DNA from: Sporichthya polymorpha DSM 43042
GTDB taxonomy: Bacteria; Actinomycetota; Actinomycetes; Sporichthyales; Sporichthyaceae
Assembly (NCBI RefSeq): GCF_000384115.1
Contig: NZ_KB913029.1
Span: forward strand, 3,385,057-3,449,056
Reading direction: 5' to 3'
Length of the DNA: 64,000 nucleotides
A program made the position numbers and the translations under genes. Below the pieces are notes generated by a model. It was not told the origin of the DNA. It was given only the letters and a program-made list of their open reading frames with translations, and searched no databases. Numbering within the stretch: position 1 is the first letter of the stretch; every line of letters begins with the position of its first letter. This document shows positions 9,856 to 58,486 of the stretch, piece by piece.

Positions 9856-10721
9856 CCTCTCCCGGTGGCGGTCGCGTCGCCGGCAAGGTCGTCCTGATCA
9901 CCGGCGCCGCACGAGGGCAGGGCCGGCACCAGGCGGTCGGGCTGGCCGAACAGGGCGCGGACATCCTCGCCCTCGACCTGTGTGCGGACATCGACTCGGT
10001 GCCGTACCCGCTGGCGACGCCCGACGAGCTCGACGAGACCGCGAAGCTCGTCGCCGCCACCGGTCGGCGCGTGGTGGCGCTGCGCGTCGACGTCCGGGAG
10101 CGGGCGGACCTGCGTCGCGCGATCGCGGAGGGCGTGGCCGAGCTCGGACGCCTCGACGTGGTCGTCGCCCAGGCCGGAATCACCGCGCTCGGCGCCGAGC
10201 TCCCGCGCACCGCCTGGACCGACACCGTCGACGTGAACCTGGTCGGGGTCGTGAACACCGTCCACGCGGCGCTGCCGTACCTGGGCGTCGGGGCGTCGGT
10301 GATCGCGACCGGGTCGCTGGTGGCGCTGCGCCCTCGGCGGGCGTACGACGAGGCCGGGCCGGGGTCCGCGGGGTACAAGTACGCGAAGCTTGCGCTGGCG
10401 CACTACGTCCACGAGCTCGCGACGGTCCTCGCGCCCGAGTGCATCCGCGTCAACGCCGTCCACCCGACGAACGTCGACACGCCGATGCTGCAGAACGACT
10501 CGATCTACCGGCAGTTCCGGCGCGATCTCGAGCAACCGACGCGGGCGGATGCCGAGGGCGTGTTCGGTGTGCTGCACCCGATGCCGACGCCGTTCGTCGA
10601 CGCCGCGGACATCACCCACGCGGTGCTGTACCTCGCCTCCGACGAGTCCCGGTACGTGACCGGGATGCAACTGCGCGTCGACGCGGGTGGTTACCTGACG
10701 GTGAACGAGTTCCGGCCCTGA
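9852..10721 (+). CDS. mycofactocin-coupled SDR oxidoreductase
   Basis: 289 residues. TGAARGQGR is the Rossmann glycine motif, ATGS supplies the catalytic Ser, and YKYAK the Tyr-xxx-Lys pair. The insert ALDLCADIDSVPYPLATPDEL is the hallmark of the SDR subfamily found only in genomes with mycofactocin, whose tightly bound NAD(H) is recycled by that peptide-derived cofactor. It starts with an ATGA overlap after the NTF2-like gene. It probably oxidises an alcohol intermediate of the pathway. Subfamily assignment is by motif recall. Confidence 0.87.
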   Translation: MTSPGGGRVAGKVVLITGAARGQGRHQAVGLAEQGADILALDLCADIDSVPYPLATPDELDETAKLVAATGRRVVALRVDVRERADLRRAIAEGVAELGRLDVVVAQAGITALGAELPRTAWTDTVDVNLVGVVNTVHAALPYLGVGASVIATGSLVALRPRRAYDEAGPGSAGYKYAKLALAHYVHELATVLAPECIRVNAVHPTNVDTPMLQNDSIYRQFRRDLEQPTRADAEGVFGVLHPMPTPFVDAADITHAVLYLASDESRYVTGMQLRVDAGGYLTVNEFRP

Positions 10722-10731
10722 GGAGCACGCG

Positions 10732-11562
10732 ATGGAACCCGGCGACTTCGCCGAACTGGACTACGCCGTCGCCGACGGCGTCGCGACCGTCACGCTGAAC
10801 CGCCCGGAGCGGCGCAACGCGTGGTCCGGGCGGATGGCGGTGGAGTACCGGTGGGCGTTGCACCACGCCGACACCCACCCGGCCGTGCGCGTCGTCGTGC
10901 TGACCGGTGCCGGTGGTGACTTCTGCGCCGGCGCCCACTCCGAGTCGCTGAACAAGATCTCCGACGGCGGCGGTTCGTACACGCCGGAGAAGCTCCCGTT
11001 GCCCCCATACCCCGAGGGCGCGCCGGACGGAATGCGGCGCAACCACGTCGTGCCTCTGCTCATCTCGACGCCGGTGATCGCCGCGATCCGCGGCGCCTGC
11101 GCCGGCGCGGGGTTCGTCCTCGCGACCTACGCCGACTTCCGCTTCGCTGCCGCCGACGCGCGGATCACAACCTCGTTCGCCCGCCTCGGCCTCCCGGCGG
11201 AGTACGGCATCAACTGGCTGTTGCCCCGTCAGATCGGCGTCACCAACGCGGCGATCCTGCTCTACACAGCCGCGATCTGCGACGGCAACCGCGCCCGCGA
11301 CCTCGGCTGGGTCCAGTCCGTCCACGCCCCGGACGAGGTGCTCCCCGCCGCGCAGGAGTTCGCGACCTCCCTCGCCCGCCACAGCTCGGGCGAGTCGCTC
11401 CGGCTGATGAAGCGTCAGCTCATGGTCGACGCCTGGGGTCCCCTCGACGAGGCCTACACCCGCTCGGTCCAGGACATGAACGCCGCTCTGAAGCACCCGG
11501 ACATCCGCGTCGGCCTGCGAGCCCTGAAGGAGAAGCGCCTCCCCGACTTCCTCGCCGAGTGA
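10732..11562 (+). CDS. enoyl-CoA hydratase/isomerase family protein
   Basis: 276 residues, crotonase fold: VTLNRPERRNAW at the N-terminus, DFCAGAHS as the CoA/oxyanion element, then GACAGAGFVLA. By eye, the two positions that hold the catalytic glutamates in classical hydratase carry Val (GAGFVLA) and Phe (SFARLG). The reaction may therefore be isomerisation, hydrolysis or retro-aldol cleavage rather than hydration. It is last in the LLM/NTF2/SDR operon, 10 nt after the SDR, and is followed by a strong terminator. Confidence 0.87.
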   Translation: MEPGDFAELDYAVADGVATVTLNRPERRNAWSGRMAVEYRWALHHADTHPAVRVVVLTGAGGDFCAGAHSESLNKISDGGGSYTPEKLPLPPYPEGAPDGMRRNHVVPLLISTPVIAAIRGACAGAGFVLATYADFRFAAADARITTSFARLGLPAEYGINWLLPRQIGVTNAAILLYTAAICDGNRARDLGWVQSVHAPDEVLPAAQEFATSLARHSSGESLRLMKRQLMVDAWGPLDEAYTRSVQDMNAALKHPDIRVGLRALKEKRLPDFLAE

Positions 11563-12535: not shown

Positions 12536-12552
12536 CCGGGCGAGGGGTGCAC

Positions 12553-14214
12553 ATGGGCGACGCCCTGGAGCGGTACCTGGAACAGCATCGGGCCGGGCTC
12601 GACGACGAGCTCTGCACCTGGCCGGCCGAGCCCGGCCTGTTCACGCGGGCGAACGCCAACGACCAGTGGCCCCGCCCGATCACGCCGCTGACGCAGGACC
12701 TGATCGGCCTCCCGATGGAACGCGGCATCGGCGTCGCCTTCTCGCAGGTGCTCGGCGTCGCGCCCGACCATGGCCCCTGGACCTGGAACGCCGTCTTCTA
12801 CGGCTGGTACACCTTCGCGGTCGAGCCCGCCGCCGCGATGGCCGACAACCTCCCGGGCTGGTCGCGCGCCGGCGTCTACGGCGACTACTTCGGCGTCGCC
12901 GAGGACCCGGACGCCCCCGCGCCCGCCGCTACCGGCGGCGCGAGCCCGCTCGCGCTGGCGAGGATCGGCCTCAACTTCACCAAGGCCCTGCGCGGATACC
13001 CGAAGCACTCCGCCCGCGACCGGGTCGCGGCCCACGCCCGGCTGCGCGTCGACCTGAACCGCGACTGGTCCACCGTCTCCGACGCCGAGCTCCTCGGCCG
13101 GTTGCGCGCGCACACCGACGAGGCGACCCGCGCCCGGGTCCCGCACGTCCTCGCGAGTGTCATCTCCGCGCCGATCTTCAAGAAGGCGAACGAGATGGCC
13201 GCGAGTTTCGCCGGCGAGGAGGCGACCGGTCTGCTGACCGCCGCCGTCACCGGCCTCGGCGGGATCCACATGCAGGAGGCGACCGCCGCGCTCGGCGACG
13301 TCGCGCGCGGCACGCTGACGCGCGAGGAGTTCCTCGACCAGTTCGGCTTCCGCGGCTTCAACGAGTTCGAGCTCTCTGCGACGCCGTGGCGCGACGACCC
13401 CGCGACGCTGGAGAAGCTCATCGGCCGGTCCGCCCCGCGCACCGAGCACTCGACCGCGGTCCGCGACGAGGCCCGCGCCCAGCTCCGGGCCGCGGCCGGC
13501 CGCCGCTGGGTCGTGTTCCGCCGCCTGCTCACAATGGCCGAGACGCACATGCGCTGGCGCGAGAACGGCAAGGTGCCGCTCGCGATGCAGACGCACTCGA
13601 TCCGGCTCGTCGTCCGCGAGGCCGCGCGCCGGCTCGTCGAGCGCGGCCGCCTCACCACCGCGGACGACGTCCACTTCCTCCGCCTGGCCGAGCTCCTCGA
13701 CGACCTCGACGGTCGCCCCGTCTCCGATCTGCCCGACCGGATCGCGCGACGCCGCCGGACCCACGAGCTCGCCCAGGACCTCCCGCTGCCGGAGATGATC
13801 GACGCCGGCCCCGGCGCGCTGTCGGTCATCACGCCCGAGCGGTGGCGCGGCCTCGGGGTCCTGCCCCCGGTCGAGAGCACCGCCGGCCGCGACCGCCTCG
13901 TCGGAGCCCCCGGCAGCCCGGGCCGCCACACCGGCCGGGCCCGCATCGTGCGCGACCCGTCCGCGGTCGACCTCGACGAGGGCGACGTCATCGTCGCCGC
14001 CGGCACCGACTCCGCCTGGACGGCGCTGTTCTTCCAGGCGTCCGCGGTCGTCGTCGACGTCGGCGGTCCGATGTCGCACTCCGCGATCGCGGCGCGCGAG
14101 ATCGGGATCCCGTGCGTGGTGAACGTCAAGGACGGCACCACCGGGATCCGCGAGGGTCAGCCGATCACCGTCGACGGCGACACCGGCGAGGTCCTGCTGC
14201 TGGAAACGGTCTAG
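12553..14214 (+). CDS. PEP-utilizing-enzyme swivel-domain protein without ATP-grasp domain
   Basis: 553 residues. The last 80 or so residues form the phosphohistidine swivel domain of PEP synthase, pyruvate phosphate dikinase and rifampin phosphotransferase: GDVIVAAGTDSAWTALFF, then GGPMSHSAIAAREIGIPCV with the phospho-His at about residue 509. The N-terminal 430 residues are helical and resemble the substrate-binding middle part of rifampin phosphotransferase. The N-terminal ATP-binding domain is absent. The ATG at 12553 is preferred over GTG 12547. A paralog lies at 33683-35308. Substrate and phosphate donor are unknown. Confidence 0.85.
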   Translation: MGDALERYLEQHRAGLDDELCTWPAEPGLFTRANANDQWPRPITPLTQDLIGLPMERGIGVAFSQVLGVAPDHGPWTWNAVFYGWYTFAVEPAAAMADNLPGWSRAGVYGDYFGVAEDPDAPAPAATGGASPLALARIGLNFTKALRGYPKHSARDRVAAHARLRVDLNRDWSTVSDAELLGRLRAHTDEATRARVPHVLASVISAPIFKKANEMAASFAGEEATGLLTAAVTGLGGIHMQEATAALGDVARGTLTREEFLDQFGFRGFNEFELSATPWRDDPATLEKLIGRSAPRTEHSTAVRDEARAQLRAAAGRRWVVFRRLLTMAETHMRWRENGKVPLAMQTHSIRLVVREAARRLVERGRLTTADDVHFLRLAELLDDLDGRPVSDLPDRIARRRRTHELAQDLPLPEMIDAGPGALSVITPERWRGLGVLPPVESTAGRDRLVGAPGSPGRHTGRARIVRDPSAVDLDEGDVIVAAGTDSAWTALFFQASAVVVDVGGPMSHSAIAAREIGIPCVVNVKDGTTGIREGQPITVDGDTGEVLLLETV

Positions 14215-15070: not shown

Positions 15071-16363
15071 TCAGGGGAGCTTGCTGACCGGCCGGTCGGC
15101 CAGCGCCCGCACGGCCGGTGCCATCGACCCCGCGACCACGGGCGCCTGACCGACAAGCTCCGCGTCGCCCCAGTCGAGAACCAGGTCGACCTCGTCCGCC
15201 AGCCGGTACGGCCGGCTCAGCAGGATCGCCCCGAGCGAGCGCCGCAACCGCGACACCTCGGCCCGGACGGCGATGACGTGCTCCGCGTCCCCGTAGAGCG
15301 CCTCGCTCAGCGCCGCGGCGCCGATGCCGGCCCGCCCGGCGAGGTGCACGAGCAGCAGCAGTTCGGCGTGACGGGCCGTCAGCGCGAAGCGCCAGCTGCC
15401 CTTGTCGCTGCAGGTCGAGACGACCGGAGCGCTGCGCAGGTCGAGGACGAGGTTGATGCGCTCCTGCCGCTCGGCCGGGCGCAGGAGCCAGCCGCCGTTG
15501 ATCCGCTCGGGGACGCACACACCCAGGCCGGGGACCGAGATCGCCCGGTCGGCGCACGGCACCGCCACCCGGCGTCCGGTCGCGATGCCGGTGGCCTCGG
15601 CGATCCAGCCCTCGTCATCGACGATCAGCGCGGGGCCGTCGAGCGTCGCGATGATCGGCGCGGCCTGGCTGCGCAGGCGCTCGAGGTGGGTCACGTGGCG
15701 CTGCCAGATCTGCATCTCGGCGCAGTGGACCGCCGTCTCCACCAGGGCGCCGATTGCCGGGTGGAGCGTCAGGGCCGGGCCGCTGACGTCCACGATGCCG
15801 GCCAGCCGGCCGGTGCGGGGGTCGTGCACGGGCGCGGCGGTGCAGTACCAGGGGTGCAGCTCGACGCAGTAGTGCTCGGCCGAGAAGACCTGCACCCCGC
15901 ATTCCTCGGCCAGTGCGGTGCCGATCGCGTTGGTGCCGACCCGCTCCTCGGTGAAGAGGGCCCCCTGGACGAAGCCGTGGCTGTCGGCGACGTGCCGCAG
16001 CTGGGTCGAGCCCTCGCGCCAGAGGATCATTCCCTGGTCGTCGGTGACCGCGAGCAGGTAGTGCGAGGCCTCGGCGTAGGAAGTGACGGTGCGTCGAAGA
16101 CCCTCGATGACCTCGGCCAGTAAGGAGCACTCACGACGCTCGTCGATTTGACTCGGCGTCAAGAGATCCTGGCGGATGTCGCCGAGCGGCTGCAGACCGG
16201 AGACCTGAGAACGGTTCCACGATCGGGCGATGACCGGACGGGGACGAAGTTCGGTGGCCCGGCCGGTGCTCGTGATCGCTTCGTGCGCCTGTCGAAGGGC
16301 GCGCGCGTACGTGGGCAGGTCCGTGCCGGGGCGTATGGAATTGAAGCCGTTCGGGGCCTTCAC
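15071..16363 (-). CDS. GAF-domain transcriptional regulator with C-terminal winged helix
   Basis: 430 residues. An N-terminal SWNRSQVSGLQP stretch and a GAF domain (about 80-235) with GTNAIGTALAE resemble AcoR/DhaR-type activators. The sigma-54 AAA+ domain of those proteins is missing. Instead residues about 345-405 (FALTARHAELLLLV ... VIAVRAEVSRLRR) look like a winged helix of the OmpR/SARP kind. It is divergent from the amidohydrolase-cupredoxin operon, with an inverted repeat between them. It probably senses a small ligand and switches that operon. Confidence 0.82.
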   Translation of the reverse strand: MKAPNGFNSIRPGTDLPTYARALRQAHEAITSTGRATELRPRPVIARSWNRSQVSGLQPLGDIRQDLLTPSQIDERRECSLLAEVIEGLRRTVTSYAEASHYLLAVTDDQGMILWREGSTQLRHVADSHGFVQGALFTEERVGTNAIGTALAEECGVQVFSAEHYCVELHPWYCTAAPVHDPRTGRLAGIVDVSGPALTLHPAIGALVETAVHCAEMQIWQRHVTHLERLRSQAAPIIATLDGPALIVDDEGWIAEATGIATGRRVAVPCADRAISVPGLGVCVPERINGGWLLRPAERQERINLVLDLRSAPVVSTCSDKGSWRFALTARHAELLLLVHLAGRAGIGAAALSEALYGDAEHVIAVRAEVSRLRRSLGAILLSRPYRLADEVDLVLDWGDAELVGQAPVVAGSMAPAVRALADRPVSKLP

Positions 16364-16458
16364 GCGTCCACCTCGTCGCTTCGGTGGTCCGGAGCATATT
16401 TCCCCTTATGCAGCGTCGTGCAACCCTTGCGGGGGCGTCTTGCGCAGCAGGAGACTTT

Positions 16459-16489
16459 CCGGACACCAACACCCGTTTCGAATGTCCGG
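16459..16489. promoter_or_regulatory. inverted repeat in the GAF/amidohydrolase intergenic region
   Basis: CCGGACA and TGTCCGG are perfect 7-bp arms separated by 17 nt, two helical turns centre to centre. It lies in the 250-nt region between divergent genes, about 125 nt before the amidohydrolase start. Long-spaced palindromes of this kind are typical of GAF-type activators. Nothing else was recognised in this gap apart from the ribosome-binding site GGTAAGGAG before 16614. Confidence 0.5.
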
Positions 16490-16613
16490 CCCGCCCCGGT
16501 CGCCGAGACGAGCCCCCGGCGTGCGGGCCCTCTGCGAATGGGTCGCGCGCGCAGCCGAGTACGCCGTCGTACGGACGGCTTCTTCGTCGATCCTCCGGTA
16601 AGGAGCGCGCCTG

Positions 16614-18431
16614 ATGGCCAAAGCCCCGAAGTTGCCCTGGAAGGAAACCTGGCCGGACGTCCCCGAGGACGTCCCGATCGACGTCATGCCGGCCTCGAAC
16701 GGCGAGTACGTCCCCAAGCCGCCGACCAAGAAGCAGCTTCAGATCATGGCGCTGCAGGACGAGGCGGTTGAGCACTGGCGTCGTCGGTTCAACATGGACC
16801 GTCGCTCGTTCGTTCGCACCGCCGCGGGGTACGCCATCGGCGTCTGGGCGATCAACCAGGTGACCGCGGGACGGTGGGGCAGCTACGCCTTCGCCAACGA
16901 CGGCATCCCCGGCGAGGAAGCCGTCGACCTGGAGAACCCCGGCGCGCAGCTGGCCAACCTCCCCGGCGAGTTCATCCTCGACACCCAGGGCCACCACCTC
17001 GACGCCGCCGGCCGGTGGCGCACCGAGAATCCCGGCTTCGGCCAGTTCCTGCAGCTGTGGACCTCGCAGGCCATGGGCCAGATGCCGGGCGTCGACGACG
17101 GGGAGCTGCGCGGCTTCGGCTTTGGCGGCGAGCTCGACTGGATCGAGAACCTCGGCCGCTACCACTACTTCAAGGAGATGTTCCTCGACTCCTCGACGAC
17201 GGTCAGCCTGCTGACCGCGCTGCCCAATCTCCCGGACGCGACGAACATCCTCCCGGTGGCGTACGCGAAGGAGACCGTCGACCTCGCGAACAACCTCTCC
17301 AAGTCCGAGCGCTGCTTCATGCACGCGTTCGCCCAGCCGAACCGTGGGTTCATCCGCAACGGCATGACGCCGATCCACCAGGCCGAGGACTTCGCCTGGA
17401 TGGAGCAGGCGGCCAAGAACATGCCGATCTACGGCTGGAAGCTGTACTGCGGCTGGGGTGACTCCACCTTCGGGACGCCGCCGCCGCTCGGCAGCGCGCC
17501 GCCGATGAACGGCTGGTGGTTCGACGACGACAACGGCATCGCGATCGTCGAGCACATCCGCATGATCTGCGAGCGCTACGACCGGCCGAAGGTCATCTGC
17601 ACCCACAAGGGTCTGGCCTTCAACGGCACCTTCGACTCGGCCAAGTTCTCCCCGCGCGACATGGGGGTGATCGGCCGTATGTACCCCGACGTGGCCTTCT
17701 ACACGTACCACTGCGGCTACGACGGCGAGTACATGACGGCGTACCCCGGTGACGAGAAGGTCAACTCCTCGAACCGCAGCGTGGACGCGTTCATCAAGAG
17801 CCTCCGCGAGAACGCCTGGGACGCGACGCAGTTCGTCAAGCCGGGCATGGAGCACGGCAACACGAAGAACATGTACGCCGAGCTCGGCTCCGTCTGGTGG
17901 AACGTCATGAACGACGCCGACCAGGCCGCGCACCTGCTGGGCAAGCTCATCACCTACGTCGGCCCCGAGCGGATCGTGCTCGGCACGGACTGCATCTGGT
18001 ACGGCAACCCGCAGCCCCAGTTCGTCACGATGCGCGCGCTCCAGTTCAGCGACGAGGCGAAGGAGTTCTACAACCTGCCCTACGGCCTCGACGGCGACCG
18101 CTTCGACCCGCGCAAGAACGCGCTGGCCCCGTCGAGCTACACGAAGAAGCACCCGAACGTGAAGGGCTGGCCGACGGACAACAAGGCCCACCCGGAGCGC
18201 AGCATCCGCAACGGCATCCTCGGCCGCAACGCCGCCAAGGCCTACGGGATGGACCCCGACGCGCACCGCGGCAAGATCTCGACCGACCAGGTCCAGGCCA
18301 TGCGCGATGCGTACATCCTCAACCCGATGACGCCCCGTGAGATGGCGACGTTCCGCAGCAACCAGATCATCGGGCCGCGTACACGTCGCGAGTTCTGGCG
18401 CTACGTCAACTCGCCCGAGTACACCCCGTGA
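16614..18431 (+). CDS. Tat-signal amidohydrolase-family metal-dependent hydrolase
   Basis: 605 residues. DRRSFVR (63-68) followed by a hydrophobic stretch to about residue 85 is a twin-arginine export signal, unusually preceded by a 60-residue polar leader. The barrel region has DTQGHHL (123-129), MHAFAQPN, ICTHKGL, YHCGYDG and VLGTDCIWYG, which correspond to the metal and acid positions of COG2159-type amidohydrolases. That group includes decarboxylases and lactonases. A strong GGTAAGGAG site precedes the ATG. The first gene of an operon with a secreted protein and a cupredoxin. Substrate is unknown. Confidence 0.82.
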   Translation: MAKAPKLPWKETWPDVPEDVPIDVMPASNGEYVPKPPTKKQLQIMALQDEAVEHWRRRFNMDRRSFVRTAAGYAIGVWAINQVTAGRWGSYAFANDGIPGEEAVDLENPGAQLANLPGEFILDTQGHHLDAAGRWRTENPGFGQFLQLWTSQAMGQMPGVDDGELRGFGFGGELDWIENLGRYHYFKEMFLDSSTTVSLLTALPNLPDATNILPVAYAKETVDLANNLSKSERCFMHAFAQPNRGFIRNGMTPIHQAEDFAWMEQAAKNMPIYGWKLYCGWGDSTFGTPPPLGSAPPMNGWWFDDDNGIAIVEHIRMICERYDRPKVICTHKGLAFNGTFDSAKFSPRDMGVIGRMYPDVAFYTYHCGYDGEYMTAYPGDEKVNSSNRSVDAFIKSLRENAWDATQFVKPGMEHGNTKNMYAELGSVWWNVMNDADQAAHLLGKLITYVGPERIVLGTDCIWYGNPQPQFVTMRALQFSDEAKEFYNLPYGLDGDRFDPRKNALAPSSYTKKHPNVKGWPTDNKAHPERSIRNGILGRNAAKAYGMDPDAHRGKISTDQVQAMRDAYILNPMTPREMATFRSNQIIGPRTRREFWRYVNSPEYTP

Positions 18432-18457
18432 CCCCCACACCAGACAGGAGGCGCTCC

Positions 18458-19027
18458 ATGTTCCGGATCGGCACGACAGCGATCGCGGCCGCCCTGCTGG
18501 TGGCCGGGTCGATCGCTCCCGCGGAGGCGAGTTCGGCCAACGCCACGGCGTCCTGGAAGGCCGGGCCGGCCAACGGCGATGCGTCGACGTTCCACCAGGT
18601 CGACGCGGGCACCGGCGAGATCACGATCTTCCAGCACAACACCCGGCAGGCGGGCACCGTTCACTGCGTCGGCGAGGGCCCGCGGGCCACGCTCGTCGGT
18701 GAGCAGGTGACGAACAGCCCGGCGTCGATGGTGCGGGTCGACTACGTCGACGCGATCATGACCGAGCACCCGATCATCGACGTCATCGTGATGGGTTCGA
18801 ACGGCCGTGTGCTCGGGCACAAGGCCGCGTTCGGGCCGAAGTACTACGAGAGCGGGTCCGTCGAGGTGCCGCTGTTCAAGAAGTCCAAGGCCGGCGAGAC
18901 GGTGCGGGTCCTGACGGGGCTTCAGGTCCACGCGGGCTGCCTGCCGCACCCCTTCGTCCTGGGTCTGGCCGGGTCGCGTCCCCTCGAGGGTGCGCGCGTG
19001 ACCTTCCCGTCGTTCTCGGTCTCGTAG
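18458..19027 (+). CDS. secreted hypothetical protein
   Basis: 189 residues. The ATG at 18458 follows an AGGAGG site; the frame is open 10 codons further up but without such a site. Residues 1-25 are a Sec signal peptide ending AEASSA. The mature part is beta-rich with two Cys residues (VHCVGEG and HAGCLPH) that could pair. It sits between the amidohydrolase (26 nt before) and a cupredoxin (16 nt after), so it is likely exported to the same place. I recognise no family. Confidence 0.75.
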   Translation: MFRIGTTAIAAALLVAGSIAPAEASSANATASWKAGPANGDASTFHQVDAGTGEITIFQHNTRQAGTVHCVGEGPRATLVGEQVTNSPASMVRVDYVDAIMTEHPIIDVIVMGSNGRVLGHKAAFGPKYYESGSVEVPLFKKSKAGETVRVLTGLQVHAGCLPHPFVLGLAGSRPLEGARVTFPSFSVS

Positions 19028-19043
19028 CGGAAAGGGAGACTCC

Positions 19044-19487
19044 ATGAAGAAGACCACCCGTTACGGGGGCCTCGGCGGGGCGTTCTTCCTCGCACTCGGC
19101 CTCGCGACCGTTCCCGGCAACGCCTCGGCCGACCCGATCGAGGACTTCACGACCCAGCCCCACCCGGCCGACACGTTCGCGTCGGGCTGGAGCTACTTCC
19201 CGTCCAACGAGATCCACATCCCGCAGGGCGGCACGTTCAAGTTCGGGAACTACGACGTCGTGCAGGGCATCCCGTCGCACAGCATCGACGAGTACATCCC
19301 CGGCTGCACCGCCCCGCCCTACAAGCCGGGCGCGGGCAAGGACTGCCCGCCCACCCGCTTCAGCAGCGGGCTGGTCGACTGGATGCAGGTCAAGCAGGTG
19401 AACGGCACCGAGAAGCTGCCCAAGGGCAGGTACGAGTTCGTGTGTCAGGTCCACCCGTCCATGCGGGGGACGCTGGTCGTCGAGTAG
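19044..19487 (+). CDS. secreted cupredoxin (plastocyanin/azurin-like copper protein)
   Basis: 147 residues with a Sec signal peptide (1-30, cleavage near ASADP). Type-1 copper ligands fit H79 (in PSHSID) and C134, H137 and M140 in FVCQVHPSM, the canonical C-xx-H-xx-M loop. Two further Cys lie in a YIPGCTAPP...KDCPP insert. Cupredoxins shuttle single electrons outside the membrane. As last gene of the operon it may be the electron partner of the exported amidohydrolase-like protein or of another enzyme. A strong terminator follows. Confidence 0.87.
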   Translation: MKKTTRYGGLGGAFFLALGLATVPGNASADPIEDFTTQPHPADTFASGWSYFPSNEIHIPQGGTFKFGNYDVVQGIPSHSIDEYIPGCTAPPYKPGAGKDCPPTRFSSGLVDWMQVKQVNGTEKLPKGRYEFVCQVHPSMRGTLVVE

Positions 19488-19501: not shown

Positions 19502-19538
19502 ACGAAGGGGCGGTAGCGGCCGGCTACCGCCCCTTCGT
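19502..19538. terminator. bidirectional rho-independent-like terminator
   Basis: ACGAAGGGGCGGTAGC pairs over 16 bp with its complement, loop of 5 nt. It lies between convergent genes (cupredoxin and sigma partner). Only a short T-containing tail follows, so it is of the actinobacterial type lacking a long U-run. Confidence 0.75.
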
Positions 19539-33682: not shown

Positions 33683-35308
33683 TCAGGCGGGTTCGGTCTG
33701 GCGGATCGTGACGACGCCGGTGGTGCCGTTGACGGTGAGGTGGGCGCCGTCGGGGATGTCGCGGGTCCCGGTGAGCGTGTTGATGACGCAGGGGACGCCG
33801 AGCTCGCGGGCGACGATCGCGCCGTGGCTCATCTGCCCGCCGGTGTCGATGACGAGGGCCTCGGCGACGAGGAACAGCGGTGTCCAGCTCGGGTCGGTGG
33901 TGCGGCAGACGAGGATGTCGCCGGGCTCGAGGTCGACGGCGGCGGGGTCGAGAGCGACGCGGGCGCGGCCGGTGACCTCCTCGTCGCCGAAGACGCCGAT
34001 GCCGGTGATCTGCTCGACGCCGGCGACCGGGGCGTCCGACGCCTTCGGGGTGGCGACCTCGGCGGTCGGGTTACCCGTCCAGGCCTGGGGGACGTCGAGG
34101 GTCTGGTACTGCGCGTGGTTCGCCTTGCGCTCGGCGACGAGTTCCTGCTGCGGGGTGCTGACGCCCGCGATCAGTTCGGAGTAGGTCAGGAAGAAGACGT
34201 CGTCGCGCGCGTCGAGGAAGCCCTTCGCGACGAGGTCGTCGCCGAGCACGCGAGCCGCGCAGCGCGCCCCGTCGATCGCGTGGAGGAAGCCGGCCTTGCC
34301 GACCTCGCGCATCGGGATCAACGAGCGTCCGAGCTTGAGCAGCAGCTTCGCCTTGGAGCGCTTGCCCCGACCGAGGGCGGCGAGCAGGTCGGCCTCCGTG
34401 GCCTCGCGGCGCGTGATCTGCGCCGCCTCCTTCGCCTTGGGGTGCGCGACGGACGCACTGCGGTACTGGTCGATCATCCGCTGAACCGGCTTGGGGTCCT
34501 CGCGCCAGATCGTGCTCGCGAGGTTGCCCTCGTCGGGCCCGTGGTAGCCGTGGCGGGCGAGGAAGTCGTCGAGCGAGAGCTGGTTCTGCGCGACCTCCCA
34601 CAGGTCGCCCATCAGCTCGGTCTCTTCCATGGAGCCGTAGCCGGTCATCAGGTCGGCGGCGCGGTCGCGGCTGCCCCACGCCGACTGCGCGAGGGCCTCG
34701 ATCTGCTCGGCGATGCCCTGGCCGATCAGGGTCATCGACGCGTGCCGCTCACCGACGCGGATGAACTCCTCCGCCGAGCGCTTCAGCAGCGCGATCGCGG
34801 ACGCCTGGTCCTTGGGCGGGGACACGATCACCGACTGGTGCCACCACTGCCGCTGGTCGGCGAGGATCGGGCGCAAGGTCTTCGCGGCCCACCGGGCGCA
34901 CAGCGGCAACTTCACCGCGACGATCGGGTACCGCCGCTTGCCCGCGGAGTCCTTCTTCCGGGCGCCCTCGGGACGGCGCTCGCCGAACATCTGCTCGACG
35001 ACGGCGTCACCGGAGGTGCCCGGCATCGCCTCGCCGATCAGCCACATCGTCCGCACGTTGCCGGCCGGGCGGCCGAAGAACGCGGCGGCGAACTTCTCGT
35101 CGACCGACGTGGGCATCTTGAGCTGGCTCCGGGGAAACACGCCCATGCGCCCGAAGGCGCGGCGCACGGAGATCTCCATGACGTAGTCCCAGTACGTCCA
35201 CCCGAGCGGGGTCTGCACGCCCTGGATCGCCTCGGCGAAGTTCGCCCGTGACCAGCGGGTCGTGGGGGAGGAGGTGGCGTGGACCGGGTTGTCGGACGCG
35301 GAACTCAT
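33683..35308 (-). CDS. PEP-utilizing-enzyme swivel-domain protein without ATP-grasp domain (paralog of 12553-14214)
   Basis: 541 residues. The C-terminal swivel domain (about 460-540) has GDILVCRTTDPSWTPLFL and GGQMSHGAIVARELGVPCV with the phosphorylated His at about 495. The first 430 residues are helical and rich in Arg/Lys, like the middle domain of rifampin phosphotransferase, and no ATP-grasp domain precedes them. The ATG at 35308 overlaps the stop of the CrtC-like gene (ATGA). It is the last gene of a three-gene operon starting at 36955. Function unknown. Confidence 0.85.
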   Translation of the reverse strand: MSSASDNPVHATSSPTTRWSRANFAEAIQGVQTPLGWTYWDYVMEISVRRAFGRMGVFPRSQLKMPTSVDEKFAAAFFGRPAGNVRTMWLIGEAMPGTSGDAVVEQMFGERRPEGARKKDSAGKRRYPIVAVKLPLCARWAAKTLRPILADQRQWWHQSVIVSPPKDQASAIALLKRSAEEFIRVGERHASMTLIGQGIAEQIEALAQSAWGSRDRAADLMTGYGSMEETELMGDLWEVAQNQLSLDDFLARHGYHGPDEGNLASTIWREDPKPVQRMIDQYRSASVAHPKAKEAAQITRREATEADLLAALGRGKRSKAKLLLKLGRSLIPMREVGKAGFLHAIDGARCAARVLGDDLVAKGFLDARDDVFFLTYSELIAGVSTPQQELVAERKANHAQYQTLDVPQAWTGNPTAEVATPKASDAPVAGVEQITGIGVFGDEEVTGRARVALDPAAVDLEPGDILVCRTTDPSWTPLFLVAEALVIDTGGQMSHGAIVARELGVPCVINTLTGTRDIPDGAHLTVNGTTGVVTIRQTEPA

Positions 35309-36252
35309 GTGCGGGTGCTCCATCCGTTGTGCAGGGCGGCGCGCACGGCGAGACCGATGTCCCGGGTGCCGGCGCGCGGGTTGGTGGACAGCTCGAAGTC
35401 GCAGTAGCCGGTGCGGCCGTCGTCGAGGATCACCTCGCACAGGGAGTCGACCCAGACCACCCCGTGGTTGCCGGTGACCACGCCGTCGACGACCGTGCAC
35501 CGCGCCGACAGTGACGACCCGTCAGCCAGCGTCCAGTACACCTCGCCGCCGCGGTGGGTGAGGGCGTCGACCTCCATGTAGGCGAGGACGTCGACGTTCG
35601 TCGCGAGCACCAGTTCACCGTCGCGGACGACGTACCCGATCTGGACGACGCTGTTGTCGGCCGCGTGCCAGGCCATCGAGCCGAACGAGAGCTCGGGGCC
35701 GATCGTCCCCGAGACCCAGCGGTGGGACAACAGCTGGTCCCAGCGGCGCGGACCCCACGAGTGGTCGCGGTGGCAGAGGCCGTCGATCTCGTAGCTGCGG
35801 CCCTGCAGCACCGCCGTCCCGCGCACCCGGCCGGAGGTCTCGTAGTGGTGCTTGGCGAAGTCCTCGACCATCGACCCACCGGAGGGGAAGAAGTCGGTGA
35901 GGTCGTAGAAGTTCTCCATCACGAGGTCGAGCGCGAGCCCGTCCTCCTTCACGCGCAGGCGCGGCCGGCCGTCCTCGACGTCCCACGTACTGCCGCCGGC
36001 GCGGAAGCCGCGTGGCGTGTCGGGGGCGAGCAGGGGGACGCGCTCGACGCGGCGGTACCGCGCCTCGCGGTCGAAGACGAAGCAGCACAGCGCGGAGGTG
36101 TCCTGGGGGACCTCCTGCCCGATCCGGTGCACGCCGCCCACACCGGCCGCCGGGTCGAACCAGTGCAGGAAGACGCTCTCCTGCCACCAGGGATCGGAGC
36201 CGGGCGTGTGGTTGCCCTCGTCCTCAGACGTGTACCGCAACCCGCCGCCCAT
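35305..36252 (-). CDS. CrtC-like / DUF7064-7065-type lipocalin-fold protein
   Basis: 315 residues, beta-rich. The motif GLCHRDHSWGPRRW (about residues 160-175) is characteristic of proteins related to hydroxyneurosporene synthase CrtC and AttH, which fold as two lipocalin-like halves binding lipids or polyenes. No signal peptide. The start at 36252 overlaps the membrane-protein gene by 29 nt, and its stop overlaps the swivel-protein start. The operon therefore couples a hydrophobic-ligand-binding fold to a phosphotransfer domain. Family assignment is by motif, function open. Confidence 0.72.
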   Translation of the reverse strand: MGGGLRYTSEDEGNHTPGSDPWWQESVFLHWFDPAAGVGGVHRIGQEVPQDTSALCCFVFDREARYRRVERVPLLAPDTPRGFRAGGSTWDVEDGRPRLRVKEDGLALDLVMENFYDLTDFFPSGGSMVEDFAKHHYETSGRVRGTAVLQGRSYEIDGLCHRDHSWGPRRWDQLLSHRWVSGTIGPELSFGSMAWHAADNSVVQIGYVVRDGELVLATNVDVLAYMEVDALTHRGGEVYWTLADGSSLSARCTVVDGVVTGNHGVVWVDSLCEVILDDGRTGYCDFELSTNPRAGTRDIGLAVRAALHNGWSTRT

Positions 36253-53612: not shown

Positions 53613-55528
53613 ACGACTACCTGCCCTTCCTCGTCATCGGCGTCACCGTCGGGTCCATCTACGGCATCGCCGCGATGGGTCTCGTACTCACCTACAAGAC
53701 CTCGGGTGTACTCAACGTCGGGCACGGCGCGGTCGCGGCCGCGGCGGCGGTGTGCTTCCACCAGTTGCGCCAGGAGCACGGAGTGCCCTGGCCGGTGGCG
53801 GCCGCGATCGCGATCCTCGGCTTCGGCGTCGTCGCCGGCCTGCTGATGGAGCAACTCGCCCGGTCGCTGGCCCATGTGCCGACCAGTTCGAAACTGGTCG
53901 CGACCGTCGGTCTGGTTGTCGCGATCCCGGCGCTGGTCGCGCTGCTGTTCGGGGTGTCGGCGAAGCGGTTCGATCCCCTGTTGGAGCAGGAGACCGCGTT
54001 CACGATCTCGGGCGTCAACGTCACGACCGAGAACGTCGTGGTCGTGGTGTTCGGGCTGCTGTCCGCGGTCGCGCTCTACGTGTTCTTCAACCGCTCCCGG
54101 CTCGGGCGCGCGATGCGCGGCGTCGTGGACGACCCCGACCTGCTCGGCCTCACCGGCGTCGGCCCCGCGCGCGTACGGCGGATGGCGTGGCTGATCGGCT
54201 GCTCGTTCGCCGCGGTGTCGGGCATCCTGCTCGCGAGCGCGCAGCAGCAGCTCGACGTCACGTTCCTCTCGTTGCTGGTCGTCCAGGCCTTCGGCGCCGC
54301 CGCGATCGGCGCGTTCACGAACCTGCCGCTGGCGTACGCGGGCGGCCTCGCGATCGGTGTCCTGCAGGCGGTGCTGTCCAAGGAGGCCAGTGCGCACTCC
54401 TGGATGCAGGGCTTGGACGTCAACACCCCGTTCCTCGTGCTGTTCGTCGTCTTGCTGGTGCTGCCGCGGCGCAAGCTCGTCGAACTCGGCCGGGCGGTGC
54501 GTGGCACCGGGCGCACCCGCACCGCTCCGCCGTGGCAACAGGTCACCGGCTGGTCGGTCGTCGCCATCGCGGCACTGCTCGCCCCGAGGTACTGGGGCGT
54601 GCACCAGTCCTCGTACACGGTCGCGGCGACGCAGGTGCTGCTGTTCCTCTCGCTCGTGCTGCTCGTGCGGATCTCCGGGCAGATCTCGCTGTGCCAGGTC
54701 GGGTTCGCCGCGATCGGTGGCGCGATGGTGGGTCAGCTGCTCGACCAGGGTCTGCCGTGGGGCCTGGCCGTCCTCGGCGCGGCGCTGATCGCCGTGCCCG
54801 TCGGGGCGGTCATCGCGATCCCCGCGATCCGCCTGTCCGGGCTCTACCTCGGTCTTGCGACGCTCGGCTTCGGCATCCTGCTCGCGCAGTACGCGTACAC
54901 CAAGGACTGGTTCTTCGGCACCCAGGGTCAGGCGACGCGGCGACCCGACGGCCTCGCCGGCGACACCGCGTACTACTACCTCGTCCTCGCGTTCGGCATC
55001 GCCGCGATCCTCGCCGTCGCCGCCCTCGAACGGTCCCGCCTCGGCCGGCTGCTGCGCTCGATGGCCGACAGCCCGATCGCGCTCGCGACGCTCGGCACCA
55101 GCGTCAACGTCACCCGCACGCTGGTGTTCTGCCTCTCGGCCGCGCTCGCCGCGCTGTCCGGTGCGCTCGGGGCGTGCGTGTTCGGCTCGGTCAGCGCCGA
55201 CTCCTACAACTACCTGAACTCGCTGCTGATCCTCGCGGTGCTCTCACTCGCCGGCCGGGGCACGCTCTCGGCCGCGGTCATCGCGCCGATCATCAGCATC
55301 CTCCCGCTCGTCTACATCGACGGCGAGACTCCCGCCCAGTGGCTGCAGCTGATCTTCGGCGTCGCGGCCATCCTCTCCGCGGTCGACCTGCCCACCCGGA
55401 TCTCGAAGTTGATCGCCCGCGGCGCGGTCGACTCCGAGTACCGGCGCGGCCGCGGCGGACCCATCTCGGGCCGGACGTCGGAGCCCACCCCGACCCGGCC
55501 GCTCGTGACCACGAGGAGTGCCCCGTGA
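53609..55528 (+). CDS. fused LivH-LivM-type ABC permease
   Basis: 639 residues, about 18-20 transmembrane helices. The first half (VGSIYGIAAMGLVLTYKTSGVLNVGHGAV) is LivH-like, and the second (about 320-620) is LivM-like (ISGQISLCQVGFAAIGGAMVGQLL, AIRLSGLYLGLATLGFGILLAQ). LivH and LivM are usually separate genes. The GTG at 53609 overlaps the preceding stop (GTGA). The tail is Arg/Thr-rich. It forms the channel for the two binding lipoproteins that follow. Confidence 0.9.
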   Translation: MNDYLPFLVIGVTVGSIYGIAAMGLVLTYKTSGVLNVGHGAVAAAAAVCFHQLRQEHGVPWPVAAAIAILGFGVVAGLLMEQLARSLAHVPTSSKLVATVGLVVAIPALVALLFGVSAKRFDPLLEQETAFTISGVNVTTENVVVVVFGLLSAVALYVFFNRSRLGRAMRGVVDDPDLLGLTGVGPARVRRMAWLIGCSFAAVSGILLASAQQQLDVTFLSLLVVQAFGAAAIGAFTNLPLAYAGGLAIGVLQAVLSKEASAHSWMQGLDVNTPFLVLFVVLLVLPRRKLVELGRAVRGTGRTRTAPPWQQVTGWSVVAIAALLAPRYWGVHQSSYTVAATQVLLFLSLVLLVRISGQISLCQVGFAAIGGAMVGQLLDQGLPWGLAVLGAALIAVPVGAVIAIPAIRLSGLYLGLATLGFGILLAQYAYTKDWFFGTQGQATRRPDGLAGDTAYYYLVLAFGIAAILAVAALERSRLGRLLRSMADSPIALATLGTSVNVTRTLVFCLSAALAALSGALGACVFGSVSADSYNYLNSLLILAVLSLAGRGTLSAAVIAPIISILPLVYIDGETPAQWLQLIFGVAAILSAVDLPTRISKLIARGAVDSEYRRGRGGPISGRTSEPTPTRPLVTTRSAP

Positions 55529-57021
55529 TCCGTACCCGTTCCTCGCACCGCCGTCTGCTGAGGACCGCGGCCGTCACCGCCGCTGTCGCGCTCGTGCTCA
55601 CCGGCTGCGGTTCCCGCCTGGACCGCGCGTCGGTCGTCGCCGCGGAGAGCGGCGAACTCGCCGAGCGGCTGGCCGAGGCGCAGGCGAACAACGCCGCGGC
55701 CGCACCCGCGACGACGGACACCGACCCGGGTGCGGGCGTCGGTGCGGTCGCGCCCGGCCAGACCGTCGACGCCCCGGTCGCGGCGGGGACGAACACCGGG
55801 GGAGCGGTCGCCACCCCGACGCCGGCCGCGTCCGCCACGGGTGGCGGTGCCAAGGCGAACACCAACGGCGCGAGTACCGGCAAGACCCCCGTGGCGGCCG
55901 GGTGCGCGAAGCAGGGCCCGCCCGTGGTGATCGGTCAGGTCGGCGCGTTCAGCGGTCTGGTCGGCGCGAACACCCAGGGCGCGGTGAACACCCTCCCCGT
56001 GTGGGTGCGTGACGTGAACGCCCGCGGCGGCATCGGGTGCCATCCCGTGACGCTGTTTCAGAAGGACACCGCCTCGGACCCGGCGAAGGCCGAGGCCGCG
56101 GTCAAGGAGATGGTCAACGTCCGCGGCGCGGTCGCGCTGGTGGCGAGCTACGCCCCGCTCGACATCGTCGGGTTCCGCAAGGGCGTCGAGTCGGCGAAGA
56201 TCGTCTCGATCGGCGGCGACCAGGTGACCCCGGACTGGCACATGTCGCCGTACCTGTACCCGGTCGGGGGGATCGAGCGGGCGCAGTTCGCCGGGTCCGC
56301 GAAGGCGCTGCAGGCCAAGGGCGTCGACAAGCTCGCGATCTTCTACTGCGTCGAGTCCACGGCGTGCACGGCGTTCAGGGACACCCTCGACAAGGAGGGG
56401 TACGCCAAGAAGTTCGGAATGGACATCGTCTACCAGACGCAGGTGTCCCTGACGCAGAACGACTTCACCTCGGCCTGCCAGTCGGCGAAGAACGCCGGGG
56501 CGAAGGCGGTCGTGTTCGCCGGTGACGCCGGGGGCGTCCAGCGCACGGCCCGGTCCTGCGCGACCGTCGGCCTGAGCGTCCCGATCGTCATCGCGGCGAC
56601 GCAGGCGACGTTCGACCCGAACGACAAGAACCTGCAGAAGGCGACCGTGTCGATGGCGTCGGCCATCTTCCCGTTCACCCAGCAGGACAACGAGGCGCAG
56701 AAGGCCTTCCGCGCCGCGATGGCGCGGTACAACCCGACGGCCGACATCAACCACGCCGCCGCGCTGACGTGGTCCAGCGCCAAGATGCTGGAGCGCGCGA
56801 TCGAGCTGCTCGGCCCGTCGGTGCACGAGGTCCCGCTCACGCGCGACCACATCATGCAGGGCCTCGGCAAGATCAAGAAGGAGACCCTCGGCGGGCTCAT
56901 TCCGGCGACCTCGTACACCTTCAACCAGAAGCAGGCCGCCGAGAACCTGTGCTACGCCGCCATGGCCTTCGACCACCGCGGCTTCCACGCACCCCAGGGA
57001 TCGAAATTTGACTGCATCTGA
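55525..57021 (+). CDS. ABC substrate-binding lipoprotein 1 (LivJ/K-type)
   Basis: 498 residues. Lipobox LVLTGCGS near residue 29, an Ala/Thr/Gly-rich linker of about 90 residues, then a periplasmic-binding fold: VVIGQVGAFSGLVGANTQG, PVWVRDVNARGGIGCHPV, and AKIVSIGGDQVTPDWHMSPYLYPVGGIERAQFAG in split form. Six or more Cys are conserved with the second protein. The GTG start overlaps the permease stop. Ligand unknown; more likely a small acid or cyclic compound than leucine. Confidence 0.88.
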   Translation: MIRTRSSHRRLLRTAAVTAAVALVLTGCGSRLDRASVVAAESGELAERLAEAQANNAAAAPATTDTDPGAGVGAVAPGQTVDAPVAAGTNTGGAVATPTPAASATGGGAKANTNGASTGKTPVAAGCAKQGPPVVIGQVGAFSGLVGANTQGAVNTLPVWVRDVNARGGIGCHPVTLFQKDTASDPAKAEAAVKEMVNVRGAVALVASYAPLDIVGFRKGVESAKIVSIGGDQVTPDWHMSPYLYPVGGIERAQFAGSAKALQAKGVDKLAIFYCVESTACTAFRDTLDKEGYAKKFGMDIVYQTQVSLTQNDFTSACQSAKNAGAKAVVFAGDAGGVQRTARSCATVGLSVPIVIAATQATFDPNDKNLQKATVSMASAIFPFTQQDNEAQKAFRAAMARYNPTADINHAAALTWSSAKMLERAIELLGPSVHEVPLTRDHIMQGLGKIKKETLGGLIPATSYTFNQKQAAENLCYAAMAFDHRGFHAPQGSKFDCI

Positions 57022-58486
57022 GTTCTCCCGGCGGGCTCTCCGTGCCGCCGCCGTCGTCGCTTCCGCAGCGCTCGTCCTGAGCGCCTGCGGTGCGCGGACC
57101 GATCACGCCGCCGTGGTCGCCGCCGAGAGTGGCGGCCTCGCCGAGCAGCTCGCGCAGACCCAGGCGAGTGCGGCCGCCGCCGCTCCCGCGACGGCCGACG
57201 CCGGGACGGGTGCGGTCGCCGCGGCGCCGGGCGCGGTCGCCGCGGTCGGCGGAACGGTGCCGGCCGGGGGAGCGGGCGCGGCCCCGACCCCGGCGGCGGG
57301 CACCAAGTCCTCGGCGGGCCGGACCAATGCGAGCGGCGGTGCCAAGACGCCGGTCGCCGCCGGCTGCGCGAAGCAGGGGCCGCCGGTCGTCCTCGGCCAG
57401 GTCGGGGCGTTCAGCGGTCTGGTCGGGGCCAACAACCAGGGTGCGGTGCAGACGCTCCCGGTCTGGGTGCGCGACGTGAACGCCCGTGGCGGCCTCGGCT
57501 GTCACCCGGTGACGCTGTTTCAGAAGGACACCGCCTCGGACCCCGCCAAGGCGGAGGCCGCCGTGAAGGAGATGGTCCAGGTCCGCAACGCGGTGGCGCT
57601 GATCGCCAGTTACGCGCCGCTCGACATCGTCGGATTCCGCAAGGGTGTCGAGTCCGCGAAGATCGTGTCGGTCGGCGGAGACCAGGTCACCCCGGACTGG
57701 CACCTCTCGCCGTACCTGTACCCGGTGGGCGGTATCGAGAAGGCGCAGTTCGCCGGCTCGGCCAAGGCGCTGCAGTCCAAGGGCGTCGACAAGCTCGCGA
57801 TCTTCTACTGCGTCGAGTCCTCGGCGTGCACGGCGTTCAAGGACACGCTGGACCGCGACGGCTACGCCAAGAAGTTCGGGATGTCGATCGTCTACCAGAC
57901 GCAGATCTCCCTGACCCAGAACGACTTCACCTCCGCCTGCCAGGCCGCCAAGAATGCCGGGGCGAAGGCGGTCGTGTTCGCCGGCGACGCCGGGGGTGTC
58001 CAGCGCACGGCCCGCTCGTGCGCGACCGTTGGGCTCGACGTCCCGATCGTCATCACCGCGAGCCAGGCGACGTTCGACCCGAACGACAAGAACCTGCAGA
58101 AGGCGACGGTCTCGATGGCCACGCCGATCTTCCCGTTCATCTCGACCGACGACAACCAGGCGATCAAGGACTACCGCGCCGCGATGGCGCGCTACAACCC
58201 GACGGCGGAGTTCAACAACGCCAGCGCGCTCACCTGGTCCAGCGCGAAGATGCTCGAGCGCGCGGTCGAGCTCCTCGGCCCGTCGGCACGCGACGTCCCG
58301 CTCACCCGCGACCTGATTCTGCAAGGCCTCGGCAAGGTGAAGAAGGAGACCCTGGGCGGGCTGATCCCGGCCACGACCTACACCCTGAACCAGCCCCACG
58401 CCCAGGAGAACTTCTGCTTCGCCGCGATGGGCTTCGACAGCCGCGGCTTCTTCGCCCCCGCCGGCGCCCGCTTCGACTGCATCTGA
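57008..58486 (+). CDS. ABC substrate-binding lipoprotein 2 (paralog of 55525-57021)
   Basis: 492 residues. TTG 57008, with AGGGA upstream, overlaps the preceding gene by 14 nt. Lipobox LVLSACGA, then an Ala/Pro-rich linker of different length. The core is nearly the same as the first protein (KNAGAKAVVFAGDAGGVQRTARSCATVGL in split form in both), with differences concentrated in linker and near ISTDDNQAIKDYRA. A recent tandem duplication giving two specificities is likely. Confidence 0.88.
   Translation: MTASEFSRRALRAAAVVASAALVLSACGARTDHAAVVAAESGGLAEQLAQTQASAAAAAPATADAGTGAVAAAPGAVAAVGGTVPAGGAGAAPTPAAGTKSSAGRTNASGGAKTPVAAGCAKQGPPVVLGQVGAFSGLVGANNQGAVQTLPVWVRDVNARGGLGCHPVTLFQKDTASDPAKAEAAVKEMVQVRNAVALIASYAPLDIVGFRKGVESAKIVSVGGDQVTPDWHLSPYLYPVGGIEKAQFAGSAKALQSKGVDKLAIFYCVESSACTAFKDTLDRDGYAKKFGMSIVYQTQISLTQNDFTSACQAAKNAGAKAVVFAGDAGGVQRTARSCATVGLDVPIVITASQATFDPNDKNLQKATVSMATPIFPFISTDDNQAIKDYRAAMARYNPTAEFNNASALTWSSAKMLERAVELLGPSARDVPLTRDLILQGLGKVKKETLGGLIPATTYTLNQPHAQENFCFAAMGFDSRGFFAPAGARFDCI

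Follow-up and report, generated by a model that had tools for sequence, protein, structure and literature searches.

Within a 64,000-nucleotide stretch of the Sporichthya polymorpha DSM 43042 genome (contig NZ_KB913029.1, positions 3,385,057 to 3,449,056; hereafter the window), which is available as a single contig of 5.5 Mb, three co-directional genes encode a putative divergent amidohydrolase (AMD), a small secreted protein (SEC) and a cupredoxin (CUP), separated by gaps of 26 nt (AMD/SEC) and 16 nt (SEC/CUP). A preliminary description made from the DNA alone had singled out this unusual gene order, a metal-type barrel and a DRRSFVR motif resembling twin-arginine translocation (Tat) signals behind a leader of about 60 residues in the first protein, and had suggested an exported redox or decarboxylating enzyme system. 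The gene order and the motif are present in the sequence, and an exported, redox-linked system remains the most economical reading that we can infer. The features of the locus are collected in Table 1.

Table 1. Features of the AMD-SEC-CUP locus (window coordinates).
Feature	Position	Strand	Remarks
REG, GAF-type regulator	15071-16363	-	430 aa; neighbour, conservation with the trio absent
REG/AMD divergent intergenic region	16364-16613		holds the inverted repeat at 16459-16489
AMD, predicted divergent (beta-alpha)8 amidohydrolase with internal twin-arginine segment	16614-18431	+	605 aa
AMD codons for residues 28-33, SNGEYV	16695-16712	+	conserved N-terminal motif SN[GE]E 5' of the twin arginines
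AMD codons for residues 62-68, DRRSFVR	16797-16817	+	twin-arginine motif, followed by uncharged TAAGYAIGVWAIN
AMD codons for residues 123-128, DTQGHH	16980-16997	+	strand-1 metal-site motif; Gln125 at the place of the first His of HxH
SEC, signal peptide and beta-sandwich	18458-19027	+	189 aa; invariant Cys70 and Cys161
CUP, secreted cupredoxin	19044-19487	+	147 aa; predicted type-1 copper ligand set, Cys88/Cys101
Hairpin 3' of CUP	19502-19538		16-bp perfect stem, 5-nt loop, without T-run

The layout indicates a single operon. By eye, a Shine-Dalgarno-like purine-rich stretch lies 5' of AMD, SEC and CUP alike. For SEC, the list of open reading frames gives a start at 18428 (199 aa); judged from the sequence, translation more probably begins at the ATG at 18458, with AGGAGG 6 nt before it. 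Downstream of CUP, the segment 19488-19560 folds with -49.4 kcal/mol and contains the 16-bp hairpin, a probable (bidirectional) terminator, which was not among the results of a scan for T-run terminators. A promoter scan, a kind of search that is uninformative for actinobacteria, found none.

AMD, SEC and CUP occur in the same order in all five genomes of the order that were examined (two genera, S. polymorpha included), and the four other genomes are 80-96% identical to the window in AMD and 59-97% in CUP. Across a class-wide sample of 393 genomes, AMD was matched in 10, comprising eight full-length twin-arginine proteins and two paralogues (G099 and G346), and SEC was matched in eight, exactly those with the full-length AMD. 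The SEC search used an alignment (A4) that includes the SEC sequences of these eight genomes, with at most eight first-look candidates scored per genome, and its informative part is therefore the absence of SEC from the other 385 genomes. The probability of the SEC/AMD overlap is 7.6e-17 if genomes are independent; the effective number is small, because the eight genomes fall in two families. CUP was matched in 16 genomes: as a full-length protein in the five genomes of the order, as the C-terminus of a propeller protein of the same operon in three more (E 5e-8 to 7e-7), and weakly, mostly at the C-terminus, in the remaining eight (E 2e-5 to 9e-4).

A scan of named genomes for AMD with the peptide patterns D[TV]Q[GT]HH[LV]D and [AN]NLPGEFI gave 39 loci. 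Those with AMD at least 42% identical, merged with the genomes of the class sample, make a close clade of 16 distinct loci (the window, G003, G004=L035, G002, G001, L036 from Haloechinothrix alba, L037, L038, L039, L040, L041, L042=G070, L043=G149, L044=G129, L045 and L059). Fifteen of them are from Actinomycetota; L039 is labelled Chloroflexi and is possibly mis-binned. SEC adjoins AMD in 15 of the 16 (all except L059), and a cupredoxin gene or domain lies near AMD in 15 (all except L040), in L045 just 3' of SEC on the opposite strand. Little or no 5' DNA is available for L038 and L059. As the profiles for SEC and for pyrroloquinoline quinone (PQQ) propellers contained sequences that they had found, the searches were repeated with the tested group left out: a SEC profile of eight sequences finds the other group (E<=3.1e-8), a profile of six finds the first (E<=9.3e-13), and the PQQ profile without L059 still matches L059. 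The co-occurrence search that the preliminary description had called for thus excludes an unconserved trio.

By sequence profile and structural model, AMD is predicted to be a divergent barrel of the amidohydrolase superfamily. Two alignments were used: A1, of eight AMD proteins retrieved by whole-protein search, and A3, of 39 AMD rows from five phyla, with one row lacking its N-terminus. Comparison of A3 by hhalign with six PF04909 (Amidohydro_2) proteins of the same genome gave a probability of 98.4% and an E-value of 8.6e-15 over residues 186-548, and Amidohydro_2 itself matched 35 of the 39 rows at E<=0.01 (best 1.1e-27). In the hhalign alignment H331, H366 and D459, each present in 39/39 rows, fall on family positions that we take to be metal ligands, and the His after strand 5, the His after strand 6 and the Asp after strand 8 of the amidohydrolase superfamily are all in place. 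Strands and helices of the AlphaFold model, which was built from eight close sequences, alternate as in a (beta-alpha)8 barrel, with Z up to 16.2 to amidohydrolase barrels and a mean predicted local distance difference test score (pLDDT) of only 42.6. Among the 50 matches listed, ACMSD, dihydroxybenzoate decarboxylase, LigW and COG3618 structures have Z 14.0-16.2 (root-mean-square deviation (rmsd) 3.8-5.8 over 245-296 aligned residues; matches within 1 Z count as tied), and the titles are mostly those of hydrolases and decarboxylases, with some isomerase and hydratase rows. Together, the hhalign result and the fold matches support the metal-type barrel suggested earlier. Sequence searches of the PDB with AMD alone, A1 or A3 gave no credible relative.

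The metal site appears to be a variant one. D123, Q125, H127, K276, H331, H366, E423 and D459 are invariant in A3, and H128 is present in 38 of the 39 rows. Gln125 occupies the place of the usual first metal His, so that QxH(H) stands in 39/39 rows where HxH would be expected. This correspondence, of FDVQTHH with IDVHTH, was read from the motif and its position on strand 1, because hhalign covered residues 186-548 only. The conservation of the Gln and His residues is partly built in, because the scan patterns contain them; support independent of the patterns comes from a Sphingobium protein found by tblastn, from the eight A1 proteins and from all five AMD paralogues, which carry DVQTH. Separately, residues ~494-529 (window ~18093-18200) form an insert with WPTDxKAHPER in actinobacterial AMD, absent from the three distant relatives and five paralogues aligned.

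The twin arginines are the second distinctive feature of AMD. R63 and R64 are invariant in the 39 rows, mostly within [SDT]RRxF[LV], and this conservation is independent of all search patterns. The 13-residue stretch starting at the second residue after the motif is uncharged in 36/39 rows, with a mean hydropathy of 0.68-1.42, and AMD thus combines a twin-arginine consensus with an uncharged hydrophobic stretch, as predicted Tat signals do. A lipobox-like Cys (loose pattern) follows the helix in seven of the 39 rows, from Chloroflexota, Myxococcota and Pseudomonadota. The motif is embedded in some 90 conserved N-terminal residues, and the stretch SN[GE]E[FY]xP preceding the motif is kept across phyla (S28 in 37/39 rows; N29, E31 and P34 in 38/39).

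Five paralogues (one in G003, two in G004 and one each in G099 and G346) have no aligned twin arginines. Their N-terminal motif reads [GS]T[DE]EY, followed by TAAGLxxLN or TAIGLRALN, and the stretch equivalent to the uncharged one of AMD has two to three charges and a hydropathy of -0.38 to 0.24; the paralogues of L018 and L019 have an RR some residues further on, without RRxF. They adjoin P450-like and other catabolic-looking genes, as judged by eye. A 53-row tree places all five in a single clade (100/100) within the twin-arginine proteins, with a support of 97/93 for the group that unites them with rows from Myxococcota, Sphingobium, Chloroflexota and Actinomycetota. The twin-arginine label needs two changes on this tree, and a single change sufficed in 0 of 200 bootstrap trees. 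Rooted with the outgroup, the tree would indicate that the twin arginines were gained once, before the family arose, and lost once later, a direction that is tentative because the program warns of long branches. Since the paralogues keep the segment after losing the twin arginines, the segment seems to be structural, and the signal may stay uncleaved. There is a precedent in the Streptomyces Rieske protein, one C-terminal domain of which is reported to be moved by an internal Tat signal (PMC13186574).

SEC begins with what appears by eye to be an ordinary Sec-type signal peptide, MFRIGTTAIAAALLVAGSIAPAEA, and its C70 and C161 are invariant in 15/15 sequences, which bears out the small secreted Cys protein of the preliminary description. 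It has no conserved Trp. The SEC model (pLDDT 79.4, 107 residues at >=90) is a ten-strand sandwich. Its VIA matches have Z 8.0-9.5 among the 50 listed, to be read against the tool's typical best Z of 7-8 when there is no clear match. The best is to an arabinanase, in its C-terminal part (8ic1; Z 9.5, rmsd 3.2, 120 aligned); EngBF, CBM61 (9.3) and CBM4 (8.7) are also among the top matches, and MAM domains and cyclases score only slightly lower. Foldseek TM-scores (query) are 0.24-0.45 among the matches listed.

CUP likewise starts with an ordinary Sec-type signal peptide as judged by eye, MKKTTRYGGLGGAFFLALGLATVPGNASA. It carries a full predicted type-1 copper ligand set, His79, Cys134, His137 and Met140, aligned in 12/12 sequences, so the cupredoxin assignment holds at the sequence level. 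The C-x2-H-x2-M loop, CQVHPSM, has amicyanin spacing. The match to Pfam Cupredoxin_1 scores 22 bits, below the cut-off of 27.

In five close loci (L042, L043, L044, L041 and L059) a PQQ-propeller protein carries the cupredoxin as its C-terminal domain. This architecture was scanned with Pfam in L024 and L041, and read from alignment in the others of L024-L026, L041 and L059. A profile of stand-alone CUP detects the fused cupredoxins in L042-L044 and L041 (E<=6.6e-8) and none in L059 at E<=0.01, where the cupredoxin rests on alignment and the CTLHPGM motif. Counterparts of Cys88/Cys101 are present in four of the five fused domains, not in L059. CUP corresponds to the tail of these propeller proteins.

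Five loci (L042, L043, L044, L041 and L045), that is, four of the five with propeller-cupredoxin proteins and one other, carry a large protein 5' of AMD that we call PHM-like. It has HLHH and HxHPGG motifs, which we take to be those of PHM, and its own CxxHPxM cupredoxin tail, which matches amicyanins (E 3.9e-4). A second basis of the label is a protein beside the distant AMD of L068 with a sub-threshold Cu2_monoox_C match (E 0.0059; 16.5 bits, cut-off 23); a protein of similar appearance in L067 had no match at all. None of the four PHM-like proteins scanned matched a Pfam family. In L040 a CCP_MauG-type protein with two CxxCH motifs (10519-11538) lies behind AMD-SEC in the cupredoxin's place. 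Positions 2899-12455 of L041 (~9.5 kb) hold, in a run, PHM-like/cupredoxin, AMD, SEC, PQQ-cupredoxin, a second PQQ protein and an S15-type alpha/beta hydrolase, which resembles an oxidation-plus-hydrolysis set for a polymer.

AMD relatives outside the close clade (25-31% identity in the scan) belong to Planctomycetota, Myxococcota, Chloroflexota and Pseudomonadota. Their flanks, which were sometimes short, gave no SEC, cupredoxin, PHM or PQQ match to the actinobacterial profiles. On the Sphingobium plasmid NZ_CP128176 the relative lies between genes for a CoA-transferase, a thiolase and an acyl-CoA dehydrogenase and a short-chain dehydrogenase/reductase (SDR) gene. Proteins with seven and eight CxxCH motifs are encoded 5' of the distant AMD in L067 (3183-5294) and L070 (5059-7236). 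By motif only, L068 and L069 have a small protein with one CxxCH, and single CxxCH motifs occur in genes of L046, L051, L052, L054, L060, L062, L071 and L072.

We propose that the AMD-SEC-CUP operon encodes an enzyme system that works outside the cytoplasm and in which a hydrolytic or decarboxylating step is coupled to copper electron transfer; of the readings considered we hold this to be the likeliest, at even odds of being right. AMD would fold around its metal in the cytoplasm, and Tat would carry it across the membrane, or anchor it there, by means of a twin-arginine helix that is integral to the AMD N-terminus. Once there, AMD may hydrolyse or decarboxylate an organic substrate in a metal-dependent reaction, at a variant site of Gln125, His127, His331, His366 and Asp459 and the conserved Lys276. 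SEC, a CBM-like beta-sandwich, would leave by the Sec route, and its probable role is to hold either the enzyme or the substrate. CUP, as an amicyanin-type blue copper protein, would pass on electrons from the oxidation of the same substrate or of the product. In the related operons this oxidation may fall to the PQQ-propeller-cupredoxin fusion and the PHM-like protein; because the window genome has no PF01011 match, CUP would take electrons there from something other than a PQQ propeller. A terpenoid, aromatic or polymer-derived substrate is our guess, because the paralogues adjoin P450-like genes, the Sphingobium relative adjoins beta-oxidation genes, and L041 has the second PQQ protein and the S15-type hydrolase.

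Several observations weigh against this proposal. The window AMD scores 16.4 bits against Pfam Amidohydro_2, below the cut-off of 26.4, and its AlphaFold model is poor. Pfam TAT_signal matches three of the 39 rows, the window AMD not among them; the leader of about 60 residues, with its conservation across phyla, is unlike a discarded signal peptide; and the five paralogues keep the N-terminal segment without the twin arginines. PF01011 (PQQ propeller) has 0 matches in the window genome and matched four of 14 control genomes in the same search, and a search for a PHM-like protein gave one weak match elsewhere in the genome (E 3.3e-4; 30% over 141 residues), which is unconvincing, so that neither search yielded an electron donor. 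The flanks searched of the planctomycetal relatives (16 of the 39 rows, L071 counted) contain nothing that matches SEC, cupredoxin, PHM or PQQ, and the AMD barrel can therefore work without the trio.

The N-terminal observations among these would fit an AMD that stays in the cytoplasm, its N-terminal segment a normal folded part and the RR fortuitous, with SEC and CUP alone exported. Besides the few TAT_signal matches, the N-terminal motif and helix shared by the paralogues and the conservation of the pre-RR region across five phyla speak for it. We consider it unlikely, given the invariance of R63 and R64 in a Tat-like context, the uncharged stretch as against the charged one of the paralogues, the lipobox-like Cys of some rows and the signal peptides, recognised by eye, of both operon partners.

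AMD might instead itself be a redox metalloenzyme, its Gln-altered site holding a redox-active Fe, Mn or Cu and exchanging electrons directly with the cupredoxin (in one relative, with the di-haem protein). A redox protein lies near AMD in all 16 close loci (a cupredoxin in 15, a CCP_MauG-type protein in one), as if electron handling alone mattered, in every row examined the Gln stands in for the usual first His, and the tied fold matches include an entry whose title names air-oxidised 'TruffO' expressed with Fe (8sm8, Z 14.7), a name for which a search of openly licensed papers found none. The fold neighbours listed are mostly titled hydrolases or decarboxylases, however, and no cupredoxin match was obtained in the searched flanks of the planctomycetal relatives, so we regard this alternative as distinctly unlikely. 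The wider idea of a new class of extracytoplasmic redox amidohydrolases strikes us as similarly improbable: these would be ACMSD-type barrels that lack the first His and keep an integral Tat signal, and they would need a cupredoxin or a di-haem protein as electron partner and have a sandwich protein of their own; in one branch the twin arginines would have been lost and the protein would again be cytoplasmic.

Secreted cupredoxins can also serve in copper handling, and SEC and CUP might be accessories that supply copper to an exported cuproenzyme (AMD or some other) or shield it, and not catabolic electron carriers. The lack of a PQQ-propeller donor in the window genome would fit this; the fusion of the relatives' cupredoxin to a PQQ propeller or a PHM-like protein fits electron transfer better, and we think copper handling very unlikely. 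That three unrelated genes have come to lie side by side by chance, for which one could plead that no common pathway is known, is extremely improbable, as the gene order is kept in several families while the flanks change (by eye, the genes outside the trio, PQQ and PHM set differ between families) and SEC accompanies full-length AMD in the same eight of 393 genomes, from two families only.

The preliminary description had also tied a divergent GAF regulator to the trio, and this was not borne out. The GAF assignment of REG rests on a partial match to the NCBIfam DhaR model (66.3 bits over residues 93-195, where the cut-off is 551), and REG had no Pfam match at E<=0.01. Among the four other genomes of the order, an ortholog lies beside AMD in G003 only (two of five genomes, S. 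polymorpha included), and for this reason REG was rejected as a member of the module. In G002 and G001 a different divergent gene, encoding mutually similar 258-aa proteins, lies 5' of AMD in REG's place, as judged by eye (L022 691-1467 and L023 9226-10002). The 7-bp inverted repeat with 17-nt spacing that the preliminary description also noted is exact (CCGGACA-N17-TGTCCGG), and its frequency is at chance level: first-order Markov resampling of the spacer gives 0.97 such repeats (spacing 3-30) per 250 bp and at least one in 49% of 2000 resamplings, and 67% of 255 window pieces of 250 bp contain one. The conservation of the repeat in G003 says little, because the whole spacer is nearly identical there, and the repeat was rejected as an operator.

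Elsewhere in the window, the proteins encoded at 12547-14214 (+) and 33683-35323 (-) are 34% identical over 388 aa, and their sole Pfam match is a C-terminal PEP-utiliser mobile domain; no ATP-grasp domain was recognised in the same protein. At 55525-57021 and 57113-58486 (+) lie tandem duplicate substrate-binding proteins (Peripla_BP_6) that are 84% identical over 387 aa.

AMD-SEC-CUP is thus a conserved protein trio for which searches of the openly licensed PMC literature yielded, within the terms tried, no relevant paper on the combination, and which includes an AMD without a credible solved relative by sequence. If the proposed system is right, the amidohydrolase superfamily would gain an exported, redox-coupled branch, and a Tat signal would turn out to form part of a conserved enzyme region instead of being a tag to be discarded. 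Genetic tests of the module should be easy, given its pattern of presence and absence.

Comparison with known systems places each component near a familiar group and apart from it. The trio resembles the methylamine dehydrogenase (mau) gene set in the amicyanin-like and, in one locus, MauG-like proteins behind SEC; it differs in that no dehydrogenase subunits were noticed beside the trio, no search being made for them, and in that SEC lacks a conserved Trp. CUP is like the amicyanin/plastocyanin-type cupredoxins in its loop spacing and upstream His79, and unlike amicyanins in its extra Cys pair 88/101, its weak Pfam score and its partner, an amidohydrolase operon and not methylamine dehydrogenase. 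The modelled ten-strand sandwich of SEC comes near those of CBM4/6/61-type proteins, as it does to MAM domains and cyclases, at a sequence identity of only 5-15%; no residues for binding were recognised in SEC, and a fold by itself shows no function. In L024-L026, L041 and L059 the propeller with its C-terminal cupredoxin lies at or near the position of CUP, like PQQ-propeller proteins with a fused electron-transfer domain in the style of polyvinyl alcohol dehydrogenase, whereas in the window genome, which lacks a PF01011 match, the cupredoxin stands alone. Finally, the strand order of AMD and the alignment of H331, H366 and D459 are those of Amidohydro_2/ACMSD-type (PF04909) enzymes such as ACMSD, 2,6-dihydroxybenzoate decarboxylase, LigW and COG3618 hydrolases; it departs from them in its sub-cut-off Pfam score, the Gln in place of the first His, the N-terminal region with the twin arginines and the insert at ~494-529.

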